Source: Gammaproteobacteria bacterium | Lineage (GTDB): Bacteria > Pseudomonadota > Gammaproteobacteria > Steroidobacterales > Steroidobacteraceae | NCBI GenBank assembly: GCA_013289615.1 | Contig: JABCZO010000002.1 | Coordinates: 101,309-165,308, forward strand | DNA length: 64,000 nt | Direction: 5' to 3' | Shown: piece after piece, positions 3,333-41,425 of the stretch | Layout: every line of letters begins with the position of its first letter | How positions within the stretch are numbered: the first letter of the stretch is position 1 | Position numbers and translations under genes: made by a program | The notes under the pieces: generated by a model | What the model saw: the letters and a program-made list of their open reading frames with translations, nothing else | Database searches by the model: none | What the model was told of the DNA's origin: nothing

Positions 3333-4568
3333 TCATCGGAATTTGTTGGCGGAGCGTTGAACACAATAGGTTGCAGCTTCCAACAACCCCTGAACGCTCC
3401 GCTCCATGTCCAGTTCCTCAAAAATAGCGATCGATCGGCGACCCATATATGTCAAATGTTCCGGATTATCCCCCAATTCCTTGAGCGCTCTTGCCATCGC
3501 CGGCGTGTCGCCCACGGAGAAAACAATCGCATTTTCCCCCTGGCGGGCAATATCCGTAGGTCCGACCGCGCCTACTTGGCTGCTCACGACCAATGGAAGG
3601 CCAAGACACGCAGCCTCAGACATCACGAGCGGGTGTGGATCTCTCGATGAGGGATGCGCAAGCACATCGCAGGCTGCGTAGATCTCGCTTAACCGGTCGA
3701 CATTTACAAAGCCTAGAAACGTTACAGGGAGGTCTTCCGCTTCGGCGCGCATTTTCAATGCTGCCAGATCTGCACCGTCGCCTGCAACAACAAAGCGGAT
3801 CCGATTGGCCGGATCCGACGACTTGAGCAGCGCCGCAGCGTCGAGAATATCCCCCGTACGTTTTCGTTCGTTCACTTTGCCGACGGTGAGGACTACCAAA
3901 TCTGTATCAGCGACTCCCCATGCCGGGCGGATTGTATTGCGCAGGTGCTGGCGACGCGCACGGACTTTCCGGTACAACTCCTCGTCTATCGTGAAGGGCG
4001 ACCTGAACATTCGTTCTCGAGAAACGCCGTAATGGGCGTAGTAATCCTCATTACAGTCGCCCACCGTGACAAATGCGGAGAACTTCTTAAGCATCCGCGG
4101 CACAATCAATGCCTTGACGGCACGTTTCATAAGCACACGACGCGCTCGTAGCTCGCTGTCCGAAATCATGATCGCAGGCGTATGCGTCTTGACGCACCAT
4201 CTGAGCGCCATCCGCGCTGTACGATGGGCATATCCGTATATGAGCACGACCTCCGGATCCAGGGTCTTCAACTCGGTCCTGATACTTGGGTTGAACACGG
4301 ACCACGCACTCGTATGGGTAATAGCGTCAGCCTCTGGTAGGAATTTGTGCTGATAACCCGAGAGCAAGTCCATGCTCCACTCAATGTCAGTATTCATGTC
4401 GCGATCAAAGTAGCGCTGCAAGCCTATCTTTGATGCATAGAGCACAGTGACCGACAATCCCTCTACTTTCGAAAGCGCTCTGTAGAATGGAACGAAGTGC
4501 TGGATCGGATGCGATACAACTACGGCCATCTGGATGGGCCTGTTGTCACATTCGCGGTCGCGCTTCAC
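3333..4568 (-). CDS. GT4 family glycosyltransferase
   Basis: 411 aa; VVLTVGKVNERKRTGDILDAAALL...FVVAGDGADLAALK...VTFLGFVNVDRLSEIYAACDVLAHPSSRDPHPLVMSEAACLGLPLVVS. Confidence 0.85.
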   Translation of the reverse strand: MKRDRECDNRPIQMAVVVSHPIQHFVPFYRALSKVEGLSVTVLYASKIGLQRYFDRDMNTDIEWSMDLLSGYQHKFLPEADAITHTSAWSVFNPSIRTELKTLDPEVVLIYGYAHRTARMALRWCVKTHTPAIMISDSELRARRVLMKRAVKALIVPRMLKKFSAFVTVGDCNEDYYAHYGVSRERMFRSPFTIDEELYRKVRARRQHLRNTIRPAWGVADTDLVVLTVGKVNERKRTGDILDAAALLKSSDPANRIRFVVAGDGADLAALKMRAEAEDLPVTFLGFVNVDRLSEIYAACDVLAHPSSRDPHPLVMSEAACLGLPLVVSSQVGAVGPTDIARQGENAIVFSVGDTPAMARALKELGDNPEHLTYMGRRSIAIFEELDMERSVQGLLEAATYCVQRSANKFR

Positions 4569-4704
4569 TAGCAGGTTACTGAAAAGGCTGTGTTTTGAAG
4601 ATTTTGTGCATGATTGAAGAACGATCGCTTCGTCGCCTTAGTAACGCTCTGGCGTTGGTATCGTTTCGACCATTGAGTATTCTTGGAGTTTGCAAATGGA
4701 CTAC

Positions 4705-5424
4705 TCATGGCTTTAACAAGACGAATAGAAGGTCGGGCGTAAGGACAGGGTGACCGCCGCCCATCAGTACTTTCGTGATCACGGGATACGCCACAGCGCG
4801 TGTCGTGGACACCAGCATTCGTCTTAGGAAAGAGGCTGCCCCACCACCGTGCAGCGGCAGCACCGGGGAACGAACAGATGCTACCGTAAATCCTGTCCAT
4901 CCGGCCAGCTGCCGAATGGCGGAGGAACCGAGCACAGTTCTATGCGTCAAGTCCCCGTGCTGGACCGCTCGCGCGAACGGACTATCCCCCGAAGGAACGC
5001 GCCCGACAACGCGGCCACCTTTACGCAGACATTCACGACAGTCCTCCAGCGTCTGTCGCAGAACTCCGGCCTCGAGGTGCTCGAACACATCGAACGCGAC
5101 CACCAGGTCCGCTGAAGTGCTGCCTGCCACCCTCGTCAGTGGCTGACCTGAAAGAGCTACATCAAACCCAGCGTCGCGCCCTGTCTGCACTAGGTCTGGT
5201 ATGGCCTCAACGCCCAGGTAGCGAGCGCCCGCCGCGCTTGCCCACGCGGCAAACGCACCGTTACCAAACCCCAGCTCAATAACCCTCACATTCGCTAACG
5301 ATGGAAATCCACAGCGTCCGAGTTCCTTGGCGAAGTAAACCGCGGACTCCGCATTACACTTGCCAAAATCCTCGGATGCCCACCCCTTCCAGTCTCGATA
5401 AGCCTCGTAACCCCCATCGGTCAT
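4705..5424 (-). CDS. Class I SAM-dependent methyltransferase
   Basis: 239 aa; VRVIELGFGNGAFAAWASAAGARYLGVEAIPDLV and VVAFDVFEHLE motifs. Confidence 0.8.
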   Translation of the reverse strand: MTDGGYEAYRDWKGWASEDFGKCNAESAVYFAKELGRCGFPSLANVRVIELGFGNGAFAAWASAAGARYLGVEAIPDLVQTGRDAGFDVALSGQPLTRVAGSTSADLVVAFDVFEHLEAGVLRQTLEDCRECLRKGGRVVGRVPSGDSPFARAVQHGDLTHRTVLGSSAIRQLAGWTGFTVASVRSPVLPLHGGGAASFLRRMLVSTTRAVAYPVITKVLMGGGHPVLTPDLLFVLLKP

Positions 5425-6524
5425 CGAGTAAGCCTTGCATTTCGGGCCTGCCGAACATGGTCGAGCACTTGTAGGGCACGAGATGGAATCGAGTAGTCTG
5501 GCACTGCGCGTGCATGGGCAGCCGCGGCAAAGGCGCGCCGCTCAGATTCCCGCGGTAGGTAGTGCATCACCAAGGACGCCAGCTCCTCGGAGTCGTTCCA
5601 CATGGGGACCTCGCTGGCCTCGTCGTACACAATACGAGCGAAAGATGTCCGCTTGTGGAGGAAGAAACAGTGTGCCGCGGCCAGCTCATAGGTGCGCGTC
5701 GAGTCCTCATCGCCCGGCTGACGCTGGTTGGCAATCACGACACGTGTATGGACTGGCGCTATGGCGATCTTTCCATCTCGCAAGAACTTCGTGTAGCTCC
5801 TGCCGTGCATAGGACCAAGAAACTCCCAGTCTTCGGGAAAATTAGTTTTTCGGGTCGTCCATCCTGGGCCGGCGACCCTAACCTTTAAGCGAACGTTCGA
5901 CGTTGCTCGCGCAAAGCCTCGGAGAAGCTGATCATATTCCTCCCTCCAATTCGCCGCTACGACTACGTCGAACGGCTGTTCACGCGGCGGCTCATCCCAT
6001 AGATGTACGGCTGGATCGTAGCCATGCGGAACGCAGACGCACCGATTGGTGTAACCATATGTCTTACACCATGCATCTGGATGATATGGCTTGGTCGAGA
6101 TAACCAAGTCATACGATCCCATCGCCATGCGAAGCGCATCGCCGTAAGCATTCGGCGAATGGTCAGGAAATACGTTGACCGTAAACACACCTCTCGTCTT
6201 TGCCTTCTGGATGAAATCGTTGCTGACGCCGGTGCCCTTGTAGACAATCAACACGTCTGGCTCGAGGCTTTCCAATTTGCTTTGGACCGCGATCTCCAAC
6301 TCTTTGCGATGGAATGACCTAAGTGCACGATTGATCGCTCGCAGCTGGATACTGCGATGCTTCGGAAGGTAATGATCCTCGCATACATCGTCAATCTCAA
6401 CGCCTTCGCATCGCGACAGCGCTTCTCGCATCGATCGGGCAGAAGAGCCGTTCCAACTCTCGCCAACGAACAAAATGCTTACTTCGTGACCCGCACGCTT
6501 CATACTTTGCCTATTGGACGCCAC
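5421..6524 (-). CDS. CgeB-like glycosyltransferase family protein
   Basis: 367 aa; VSILFVGESWNGSSARSMREAL...VFPDHSPNAYGDALRMAMGSYDLVISTKPYHPD...RQPGDEDSTRTYELAAAHCFFLHKRT. Overlaps the downstream methyltransferase by 4 bp. Confidence 0.7.
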   Translation of the reverse strand: MASNRQSMKRAGHEVSILFVGESWNGSSARSMREALSRCEGVEIDDVCEDHYLPKHRSIQLRAINRALRSFHRKELEIAVQSKLESLEPDVLIVYKGTGVSNDFIQKAKTRGVFTVNVFPDHSPNAYGDALRMAMGSYDLVISTKPYHPDAWCKTYGYTNRCVCVPHGYDPAVHLWDEPPREQPFDVVVAANWREEYDQLLRGFARATSNVRLKVRVAGPGWTTRKTNFPEDWEFLGPMHGRSYTKFLRDGKIAIAPVHTRVVIANQRQPGDEDSTRTYELAAAHCFFLHKRTSFARIVYDEASEVPMWNDSEELASLVMHYLPRESERRAFAAAAHARAVPDYSIPSRALQVLDHVRQARNARLTR

Positions 6525-6689
6525 GGTTGATCATTGGAAATGGGGAGCAGCGCACTCGCTCCGCACTACGGAACCAAGGTGCGCCGGGCGTGGTGGACGC
6601 AGCTCGGCGGTATTTGACTGCAGTAAACCTGGAAAAATTTGCCGTAAGTACGCTTACGCCGGCGTTGAGAATAGGCAACCTATCCATGG

Positions 6690-8234
6690 TTATTGGATAC
6701 TTGCAAGGAGCCTCGTAGCGATAGCTAAGGCCGTTAACGTGCAGTTAGCGTGACTCGAGGACGGAAGGACCGCCGCCCCTGCCACCCAAACATTACTCGT
6801 GCCCCAGACCCGGCAGTCGCTGGTGACGACGCCCGTGCCAGGCGATGCCGACATTCGAATGCCGCCGCATTGGTGGTATGTATCACCTAAGCTATCTATG
6901 AAAGCCACGTCCCGCCTTTGAAGGGCAGGATCAATACTCAGCTCGGCAAGTCCACGGCTTCTCAGATACGCATCCGACTCAGCGGCGAGTTGATATATCG
7001 CATCGATTTCTCTTCCATCACACCTCCAATCGACAGCGACAGGGACCAGACCATCCATCGCGCGATCCGCATCTTGCAATCGGATCCTGGAGCTTGCGAT
7101 GGGAATCTGCTCCGCCTGCACATTGAACATAACGCTGCGGTCAAACAGCGCGAAAATCCTCCGATTTCGCACGTACCGTGAAACGATTGGGAGCAGTGAA
7201 CGGCCAACAGCGAAAACGTCGTTTATACGAGATGTGGCTGACGAAAATGCCAAGCCTGACCGAAGTCCGCGAATCGTTCTCTTAATGTTCCCAACGTTCT
7301 CCGAGACGCTTGAATCAAAGGCGAAGATACCGCAAGCCCCGCTTGGCAATGACTGCCGAAGTGCGCGTGATAGCGTCAATTTGGGCTGCAGTTTAATGCC
7401 ATTGACCCAGCCATTTTCAAAATAGTCTCTGAAGCGCTTTTCATCCAGGATTGACACCTTTGCGATCTTGCCACCCAAATGATCCTGAAAGTAGAGTCCG
7501 ATATTGTCGTTAGAGGCCCAAGGAACCCTGCCATCCCTCTGTGTTGAGAGGAAAAACCGACTGGTGGCGACGGTTCCGGAAGCAAAGACGAATCTTTTTG
7601 ATCTTATCCTTAGGTTCCGGCCGCTGGCTGATTTGCAGTGAAGAAATCGAGCGTTCTCTCCGTCGAATTCACAACCATTGGCAGTAAGATTTACTATGAT
7701 ACGGATTGACGGGTCCGATTGAATTAAGCTTTTGTATAGGGTGGCAAAATTTGGCTGATGGAGCCAGTAAGTGAAAAAGCGCTCGACTGATCCGGGCGCC
7801 TCAGTTTCGCCACCGAACTTCTGTCGATAGAAAGCCATTGACGCCGGGCTTCCGATGGCGAGGCGCTGGTATACGACTCGATAGTGCTTTTGCAACTCCT
7901 CGTATGAGAGCGGCCAAACTGCACCGGGTGGCTCAAGGTCTGCGTGGCTGAATTCAGCAAGTTGTCCGCCCCAAAGCGAACTTGTCCCGCCAAGACCTGC
8001 GGCTCGGCCAAGATGCACGCCCTCATGCGGCTTTCCGACGCTCGTCGATGTAAAGGAATTCAGAGAGGTACTTGCAACTCTCGGGCCAGCCTCTACAAGG
8101 ATTATGTTGGAGGCCTTTTTGGCCTCCGCTAATGCGGCTGCCAAATAAAGGCCGACGGTTCCGGCGCCGATGATGACGAGTTCCGATGATAAGTCACCGG
8201 GCACGTCCTCCGTAAGATTAGCGTCAAGCAGCAT
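6690..8234 (-). CDS. GMC-type FAD-dependent oxidoreductase
   Basis: 514 aa; LVIIGAGTVGLYLAAALAEA (FAD-binding) and C-terminal YHQCGGIRMSASPGTGVVTSDCRVWGTSNVWVAGAAVLPSSSHANCTLTALAIATRLL. Confidence 0.85.
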   Translation of the reverse strand: MLLDANLTEDVPGDLSSELVIIGAGTVGLYLAAALAEAKKASNIILVEAGPRVASTSLNSFTSTSVGKPHEGVHLGRAAGLGGTSSLWGGQLAEFSHADLEPPGAVWPLSYEELQKHYRVVYQRLAIGSPASMAFYRQKFGGETEAPGSVERFFTYWLHQPNFATLYKSLIQSDPSIRIIVNLTANGCEFDGENARFLHCKSASGRNLRIRSKRFVFASGTVATSRFFLSTQRDGRVPWASNDNIGLYFQDHLGGKIAKVSILDEKRFRDYFENGWVNGIKLQPKLTLSRALRQSLPSGACGIFAFDSSVSENVGNIKRTIRGLRSGLAFSSATSRINDVFAVGRSLLPIVSRYVRNRRIFALFDRSVMFNVQAEQIPIASSRIRLQDADRAMDGLVPVAVDWRCDGREIDAIYQLAAESDAYLRSRGLAELSIDPALQRRDVAFIDSLGDTYHQCGGIRMSASPGTGVVTSDCRVWGTSNVWVAGAAVLPSSSHANCTLTALAIATRLLASIQ

Positions 8235-39170: not shown

Positions 39171-40199
39171 CTAATCGCGCGACCCGGCTCCGACTGCGAC
39201 CCAGGCCAGATCGGCGTTCGACACCGACTCGAGCTTGAACCCCTTGGCGGCGGCAGTCATGCGCGTGAGCGCCTGACCGATCGGCATCGCCGGGGCGGTC
39301 TCGCCGCGCTTTTGGATCTTGAAGCGCACCGGGTTGATGCGTGCGACCACGTAGTTACGCAGGTACGGCGACTTGAAACCGCGCGCCTGAAGTCCGGCGA
39401 TGATCTTCTTCACCTCGGTATCGATCGCCTGCAGGCGCGCCGCGTAGCCTTCGCGCTCGCGCAGACCTGCCGGCAGCGCCCGGGTGCTGAACCGGTCCAC
39501 CTTCCTGAGCAGCGGGCTGTAGGCGCCGCCGGCAAAGCGCGGCAGTTTCTCGTAGATGATGCCGAGCGTGAGCAGTTCGGCCGACTCGAACTGGTCGGCA
39601 AATTGCGTCTCCTTCGCGCCCGGCTGCTTGCGCGCCAGGCTTCTAGCCATGCGGATCACTTCCAGGCTGCGATCCTTGAGGTTGTGCGCCTTTTCGGTAT
39701 TGAGCGCCAGAATCCGATACGCGAGCGTTTCATCGGGCGAGATCAGTACCGAGACCTGCTTCAAACCCAGCATCTTGGCTGCCGCCAGTCGGTGTCGTCC
39801 GTTAGGGGTCCAGAAGTTGTCAGCGTCGCCCAGCACCACGATCAGCGGGTCGAGGAAGGCTCCGGCCTCGTCGATTTTTTCCGACAGGCGCTTGGTATGC
39901 GTCGGCGACAGATCGCGCTGGAACGGCGTCGGCTGTATCGCGCGAAACGGCAGCGTCGCCAGCACCAGTGCCCGCCCGCCGAGCGGATCCCGGTAGGTGC
40001 CGATGGCAACGCCGCCCGCCTGACGGATGCGCGACATGAGTGGCCGGATCTCCTCGTGGTCGGCAGCCAGCGCGATCTCGGCGGCCTCAAGGCCCCGCGC
40101 CCGCGCCGACGGCTTGAGCTTTCGGCCTGCGCTCACTCGCCGGGCCGACGGGTTCCTGGGCGATTTGGATTTGCGGCGGGTCGCGGTGCGGGTTGCCAT
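39171..40199 (-). CDS. ParB N-terminal (ParB/Srx) domain protein
   Basis: 342 aa; QRDLSPTHTKRLSEKIDEAGAFLDPLIVVLGDADNFWTPNGRHRLAAAKMLGLKQVSVLI; Lys/Arg/Ser-rich N-terminus. Confidence 0.75.
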   Translation of the reverse strand: MATRTATRRKSKSPRNPSARRVSAGRKLKPSARARGLEAAEIALAADHEEIRPLMSRIRQAGGVAIGTYRDPLGGRALVLATLPFRAIQPTPFQRDLSPTHTKRLSEKIDEAGAFLDPLIVVLGDADNFWTPNGRHRLAAAKMLGLKQVSVLISPDETLAYRILALNTEKAHNLKDRSLEVIRMARSLARKQPGAKETQFADQFESAELLTLGIIYEKLPRFAGGAYSPLLRKVDRFSTRALPAGLREREGYAARLQAIDTEVKKIIAGLQARGFKSPYLRNYVVARINPVRFKIQKRGETAPAMPIGQALTRMTAAAKGFKLESVSNADLAWVAVGAGSRD

Positions 40200-40298
40200 A
40201 CGGGAATGCCGAGCGTCGGAGGGCCATTAGTGTCGCGCCGCGAGGCTCCTAACGCCAGTTCAGGGCACGCTTTGCCATCGATCGCTGGTTCATGTAGG

Positions 40299-40369
40299 TT
40301 GACAATGATTACCTTAAGCTTGACAATACTACTTCATCGAGTTGTCAATTTCAAGCCTAAGATTGACAA
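40299..40369. promoter_or_regulatory. Four phased TTGACAA/TTGTCAA sites in a divergent intergenic region
   Basis: TTGACAA at 40299 and 40320, inverted TTGTCAA at 40342, TTGACAA at 40363. Spacings 21, 22 and 21 bp. Confidence 0.85.
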
Positions 40370-40390
40370 AGTCCCCAGGGCTGATTGCAT

Positions 40391-41425
40391 ATGACCCGAA
40401 TACGCGCCAGAGGCGAGGACGTCCGCAAATACATCCTGGAGCACCTTGAAAGTCACCCGCACGACGTCAGCAAGTTGACCTCAGAGCATTTCGGGATCAC
40501 CAGGCAAGCCGTCAATAAGCATCTCCAGAGACTAACGACAGAGCACGCGATCGTGCAGGCGGGTAAGACCCGCAATAGGACTTATAAGTTAGTTAGCCGC
40601 TCGAAGTGGGATAAGCGTTATGAACTGACGCCGCAATCTCTTGCAGAGGATGTCGTGTGGAGAGATGACATCAGTAAAGTCATCGGGGAAATGCCGGACA
40701 ATGTCCTTGCAATTTGGCATTACGGATTTACTGAAATGTTCAACAACGCGTTGGACCATTCTTCGGGAACCTCGATTTACCTTGAAATAGCCAGAAATGC
40801 CGTGAGCACGCAGATGATAGTTCAAGATAACGGTGTGGGAATCTTTAACAAGATCCAAACGGCATTGGGCCTTCTGGACCAACGTCATGCAATCCTTGAA
40901 TTAGCGAAAGGAAAGCTGACAACTGATCCAGCGCGGCACACGGGCGAGGGAATCTTCTTTTCTTCGAGAATGTTTGATGAGTTTGACATTCTTTCTGGCG
41001 GCGTCTTTTTCTCACATAAATTTGAAGAAACGGACGATTGGACATTGGAGCGCGATAGATTCAGTAGCGGTACGCTCGTGTGGATGAAACTGAATAATCA
41101 CGCTTCCAGAACGACAGCAAAAATATTCGATCAATACACATCTGGCGATGAATATGGGTTCACAAAGACGGTCGTCCCGGTCAACCTCGCAAGATATGGG
41201 AACGAAAATCTGATATCGCGCTCGCAGGCAAAACGACTGTTAGCGCGAGTGGAGCTTTTCAAGAAAGTCTTATTCGATTTCAAGGATGTTCCGACCATCG
41301 GACTTGCATTTGCCGATGAGATATTTCGGGTGTTTGCTAAAAGTCATCCCGAGATAGAGCTTCATCCCATTCATGCCAATTCAGAAGTCAAAAGGATGAT
41401 CGACCGGGCACAGTATTCACACTGA
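40391..41425 (+). CDS. wHTH + GHKL ATPase + C-terminal STAS-like (DUF4325) protein
   Basis: N-terminal LTSEHFGITRQAVNKHLQRLTTEHAIVQAG; ATPase boxes WHYGFTEMFNNALDHS, VQDNGVGI, HTGEGIFFSSRMFDEF; C-terminal TVVPVNLARYGNENLISRSQAKRLLARVELFKKVLFDFKDVPTIGLAFADEIFRVF. Track start 40385 is TTG; ATG at 40391. Confidence 0.8.
   Translation: MTRIRARGEDVRKYILEHLESHPHDVSKLTSEHFGITRQAVNKHLQRLTTEHAIVQAGKTRNRTYKLVSRSKWDKRYELTPQSLAEDVVWRDDISKVIGEMPDNVLAIWHYGFTEMFNNALDHSSGTSIYLEIARNAVSTQMIVQDNGVGIFNKIQTALGLLDQRHAILELAKGKLTTDPARHTGEGIFFSSRMFDEFDILSGGVFFSHKFEETDDWTLERDRFSSGTLVWMKLNNHASRTTAKIFDQYTSGDEYGFTKTVVPVNLARYGNENLISRSQAKRLLARVELFKKVLFDFKDVPTIGLAFADEIFRVFAKSHPEIELHPIHANSEVKRMIDRAQYSH

Follow-up and report, generated by a model that had tools for sequence, protein, structure and literature searches.

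CapK and CapS form a two-protein switch that responds to DNA damage. Single-stranded DNA activates CapK (HTH-STAS-GHKL), whose phosphorylation substrate is CapS (STAS-wHTH), a repressor of both its own promoter and an immune operon located downstream; this autorepression is known experimentally (PMC13373217, EMBO J 2026). In most cases the operon behind the two genes is a known or predicted immune one. A module of GHKL and STAS proteins is also found in VapK-VapS-VapC, a three-gene toxin-antitoxin operon in which VapS has the phospho-serine and no winged helix-turn-helix (wHTH) (PMC13373217). In Rv1364c of Mycobacterium tuberculosis, kinase and STAS domains are part of one polypeptide, together with PAS and phosphatase domains and without wHTH; the protein acts on SigF, and its STAS domain is phosphorylated (PMC9138534). 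In the open-access full-text literature, we found no description of the architecture or of the repeat array reported below, and nothing on the function of DUF4325.

The window, i.e. the whole stretch of 64,000 nucleotides that was analysed, contains a gene (hereafter the target gene, Table 1) whose product has the same three kinds of domain as CapK/CapS. Unlike CapK and CapS, which are encoded by two adjacent genes, it is a single gene with the order wHTH-GHKL-STAS, its STAS-like domain lacks the phospho-serine of CapS, and no immune operon follows it. Multiple helically phased sites are predicted as binding sites here also, but where CapK/CapS has TTAA palindromes the putative operator consists of 2 to 5 direct repeats about 22 bp apart. 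Repression of its own promoter, demonstrated for CapK/CapS, is proposed for the target. The target has a GHKL and STAS module in common with VapK-VapS-VapC, with no toxin gene alongside, whereas its wHTH has no counterpart in VapS or in Rv1364c. The ATPase domain has its best structural match among the SpoIIAB/RsbW anti-sigma kinases, and it keeps the Glu and Asn of their N box, but it is fused to a DNA-binding domain, and neither a sigma factor nor an antagonist is encoded nearby. By this comparison, the target looks like a rearranged, single-chain version of CapK/CapS in which the wHTH itself would be the repressor. The preliminary description of this DNA had stated that kinase and STAS domains are normally split over separate proteins, to which Rv1364c is a known exception (PMC9138534), and that it knew of no defined function for the architecture; CapK/CapS now provides a characterised relative (PMC13373217).

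Table 1. Features of the target gene and its upstream region (positions in the window).
Feature	Position	Strand	Details and basis
Target gene	40391..41425	+	ATG 40391, stop 41425; 344 aa, wHTH-GHKL-STAS-like; sequence, Pfam, AlphaFold2 model
Winged helix-turn-helix, residues 1-78	40391..40624	+	recognition region R38-Q39-A40...H44; model and conservation
GHKL ATPase domain, residues 86-235	40646..41095	+	model; Foldseek to SpoIIAB
N box, E115...N119...H123	40733..40759	+	73/75, 75/75 and 75/75 members
G1 box, D146-x-G148-x-G150	40826..40840	+	74/75, 75/75 and 75/75 members
G2 box, G185-E-G187	40943..40951	+	G185 and G187 both 75/75
DUF4325 STAS-like domain, residues 252-344	41144..41422	+	phospho-serine position lost (L305/A306); Pfam, alignment, model
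Iteron 1, GTTGACAAT	40298..40306	+	sequence; conserved before homologues
Iteron 2, CTTGACAAT	40319..40327	+	21 bp past iteron 1
Iteron 3, GTTGTCAAT	40341..40349	+	22 bp past iteron 2; variant shared with several homologues
Iteron 4, ATTGACAAA	40362..40370	+	21 bp past iteron 3; sequence
Sigma-70-like promoter, TTGACA (iteron 1)-17 bp-GACAAT (iteron 2)	40299..40327	+	consensus scan 10/12; function inferred

Full-length homologues of the target protein, up to 77% identical, were found in many genomes. The DUF4325 profile (PF14213) scored 51.6 bits at residues 279-334, for a cutoff of 23, and was above its curated cutoff in five divergent members too; matches to the HATPase and HTH profiles were sub-threshold in the target protein and above cutoff in other members of the family. 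The wHTH was strongly conserved across the family. A structure prediction, as the preliminary description had advised, was made with AlphaFold2 from an alignment of 37 family members, and recovered the three folds with a mean pLDDT of 84 (wHTH 2-78, GHKL 86-235, STAS-like ∼252-344). SpoIIAB was the best full-length Foldseek match of this model (E 6e-6). When modelled separately, the C-terminal domain adopted a beta-alpha-beta-alpha-beta-alpha arrangement, and its top structural matches were all STAS domains (prestin, RsbS, stressosome, SulP; probability 0.99-1.00), so that it has a STAS fold, although with modest E-values (only 0.015-0.07); its profile match to VapS (PDB 9z7o) was weak, with E about 1. 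Pfam, AlphaFold2, Foldseek and the separate C-terminal model therefore agree that wHTH, GHKL and DUF4325 STAS-like domains are joined in one chain, as had been proposed. The protein is likely a transcription factor with an intact predicted ATP site.

The N, G1 and G2 boxes noticed in the preliminary description are built of residues almost invariant among 75 members, and with the Glu and Asn of the N box they give the protein the marks of an anti-sigma-type GHKL domain. Because this Glu and Asn and the glycines of G1 and G2 are so well kept (n = 75), the domain very likely binds ATP and may be catalytic. The phospho-serine position of the STAS-like domain was placed by a weak alignment to VapS, and neither of the two candidates is a conserved Ser or Thr: among the 75 members, position 305 is Q, L, P, I, H or N, and position 306 is A in 57, G in 16 and S in 2. 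The conserved Ser or Thr that starts the second helix in SpoIIAA, CapS and VapS is thus missing, and classical phospho-switching of the STAS-like domain appears unlikely. Of the earlier proposal of an ATP- or phosphorylation-gated transcription factor, the likely factor and its ATP site stand, while gating at the usual STAS serine does not.

Four iterons with a period of 21/22/21 bp (40298-40370) lie just 5′ of the target gene. This array, which the preliminary description did not mention, is the main addition of the present work, and its existence and conservation upstream of the gene are very well supported. At least two sites were present within 140 bp upstream in 39 of 42 clade loci, but in only one of 2545 flanking control windows. 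Of the sites, 114 ran in the gene's own direction and 2 in the opposite one, with up to five copies per locus. They were spaced by 21 bp (26 cases), 22 bp (32), 43-44 bp (7) or 11-12 bp (6), the latter mainly in cyanobacteria and also in a Desulfobulbaceae locus, L040. The core C was retained in 110/110 sites, and conservation reached upstream into AAG. Information content was up to 2 bits at core positions and near zero in the spacers, which means that the array is not conserved by mere shared ancestry of the region. In the own genome, the only array match was at the promoter of the target gene, and exact doublets were exclusive to the gene's promoter in this genome and in 12 of 16 carrier genomes (13/17 altogether). 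Among 38 relatives devoid of the gene, two had one match each, neither of them array-like. A search made stricter by requiring AAGG ahead of both sites gave zero matches in seven genomes, the own genome included, because its own array is imperfect.

In divergent members, prophage copies included, the period of about 22 bp was kept and the word was often different: GCTTTACAATTA (also given as TTTACAATT) in L096, GGTTTACAA in L146, AGTAGCAAGT in L155, CTTGACG in L129 and AGTTATAAC in L045. A phased repeat was present in 36 of 41 divergent members and absent from about 5, compared to 12 of 41 in shuffled sequence; a phased 8-mer of some kind often arises in shuffled sequence too, which makes any single divergent case weak. 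The iteron array is probably the gene's own control switch. A simple rule linking the recognition helix to the letters of the repeat is not proposed, as relatives with similar helices, compared by eye, use both TTGAC and TTTAC. In L040, arrays flank the gene on both sides (5873-5920 and 6938-6985); the second one overlaps the end of the coding sequence, and may have been left by a tandem duplication.

Scanning GTDB contigs yielded 44 relatives. Most share 53-77% identity, and they belong to Proteobacteria, Acidobacteria and Cyanobacteria, with a few relatives that are more distant. The gene was sparse: it was present in 6 of 398 other genomes sampled from its own phylum, in 15 of 395 other genomes from the phylum of G006, and in 1 of 39 other near relatives, with one copy per genome in every carrier that the genome searches found. 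IMG/VR contigs gave 12, then 28 matches, partly from identical contigs and mostly to more distant members; in plasmid and GenBank phage records, tblastn with two different members as queries gave zero matches. Genes for a tail sheath, a tail fibre or an integrase adjoin the prophage copies: in L105 the gene sits amid tail and head genes but on the other strand, in L112 and L113 it is near tail fibre and baseplate genes, and in L106 and L114 it is next to integrases. In the window, its GC content is 48%, for surroundings at 60-70%. Judging from this distribution and composition, the target gene is accessory, mobile and horizontally transferred. The closest relative, G020, was compared as an empty site, but the right flank was not syntenic, so the exact ends of the insertion are not definable.

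We conclude from the neighbourhoods that the gene travels without a partner. The survey of homologue neighbourhoods that the preliminary description had suggested, done by comparing all neighbours in the retrieved loci with one another, revealed zero recurrent neighbours besides small groups in few loci; neither a STAS nor a sigma gene recurred beside family members, and neighbour orientation was near random. As had been reported, no sigma factor gene adjoins the target gene itself. A PADLOC scan of the target gave zero specific matches to known defence families, and at most 2 of 120 neighbours, which are mostly unrelated, matched any PADLOC model. In L038, a 996-aa ORF (3746-6733) directly follows the homologue; the methylase and SNF2-helicase matches in the neighbour scan probably stem from neighbours in L038 and L032. 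The ParB-like neighbour (39171-40199, minus strand) matches ParB_N weakly, has a long C-terminal portion and is conserved in the genus. It had been put forward as a possible partner, and was rejected: it is native to the genus, with matches in 19 of 40 genomes, the own one included, most at 64-84% identity, and its carriers almost always lack the target gene.

The reading that we favour, with a probability of roughly 0.6, is that of a horizontally mobile autorepressor gene whose product binds the array in front of it, is gated by ATP or a ligand, and is a rearranged one-chain relative of CapK/CapS. The adjacency of gene and array and the changing words suggest that the wHTH binds the array. 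Protomers would bind via their wHTH to direct repeats about two helical turns apart. Since adjacent repeats form a sigma-70-like promoter (TTGACA-N17-GACAAT), the bound protein would cover it and block RNA polymerase. The GHKL domain would bind ATP, and gating of the protein by ATP is plausible. A signal altering the GHKL/STAS-like module would release the array and produce a burst of protein; by analogy with CapK, this signal is perhaps single-stranded DNA, other DNA damage or phage stress. Because a gene controlling only itself has no obvious benefit, some output is missing from this model: the protein may itself be the effector, or act on dispersed targets. As a more tentative and doubtful extension, the family may form a class of single-gene switches borne by phages or islands, whose one protein would combine the roles of sensor ATPase, repressor and effector, with its own operator array co-diversifying with the DNA-binding domain. 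If true, such a gene would amount to a stress or anti-phage device complete in itself, functional in whatever genome receives it.

Under the autorepressor reading, one mobile gene would unite what a known DNA-damage switch divides between two proteins, and would bring along a testable putative operator. The conserved array pinpoints the DNA for binding tests, and the many variants would supply naturally occurring repressors with their matching operators. If phage or DNA damage is sensed, the protein would be a minimal, portable regulator.

Alternatively, the protein may work as a partner-switch kinase, its GHKL domain phosphorylating a STAS protein or other substrate elsewhere, or another Ser/Thr of its own, and its wHTH only addressing its own promoter. 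The SpoIIAB-like fold and the conserved catalytic Glu (73/75) and Asn (75/75) are in line with this, as are the precedents of CapK, a kinase of the same type, and VapK, proposed as one (PMC13373217); S276, S278, T177 and T178 are moreover near invariant (n = 75). The loss of the usual phospho-serine from its own STAS-like domain and the lack of a recurring STAS or sigma gene alongside argue against it, and we regard a kinase as rather unlikely. Less probable still is a regulator of a dispersed regulon, with the array merely its strongest site. The strongly conserved wHTH would suit such a role, and single 9-mer sites are indistinguishable from chance genome-wide, but the exclusivity of exact doublets in 13/17 genomes speaks against it, and a common regulon is not expected of an accessory gene jumping between phyla.

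The repeats themselves could be read otherwise. Their TTGACA and GACAAT hexamers with a 17-bp spacer resemble tandem overlapping sigma-70 promoters rather than operators, yet the core C is invariant at a place where the −10 box prefers T, conservation extends upstream into AAG, spacings of 11-12 bp occur in cyanobacteria and L040, and loci have up to five copies, with other words in relatives; such an origin is very improbable. We give equally little credit to the repeats being sites at which a minimal mobile element recombines or replicates. The gene does move widely, and L040 has its second similar array at the 3′ end of the gene, but this downstream array was seen at one locus only, the protein has no nuclease or recombinase domain, and the position of the array suits a promoter.

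Tandem 23-bp units, TTGACAACAGGGTATAAACACCC, were observed in G016 at C3:301290-301365 and C25:53361-53436, unrelated to the target gene. Finally, a similar small divergent upstream gene, insertion-sequence HTH-like, was present in L010, L014, L020 and L024, of which L010, L020 and L024 are Acidobacteriota records.
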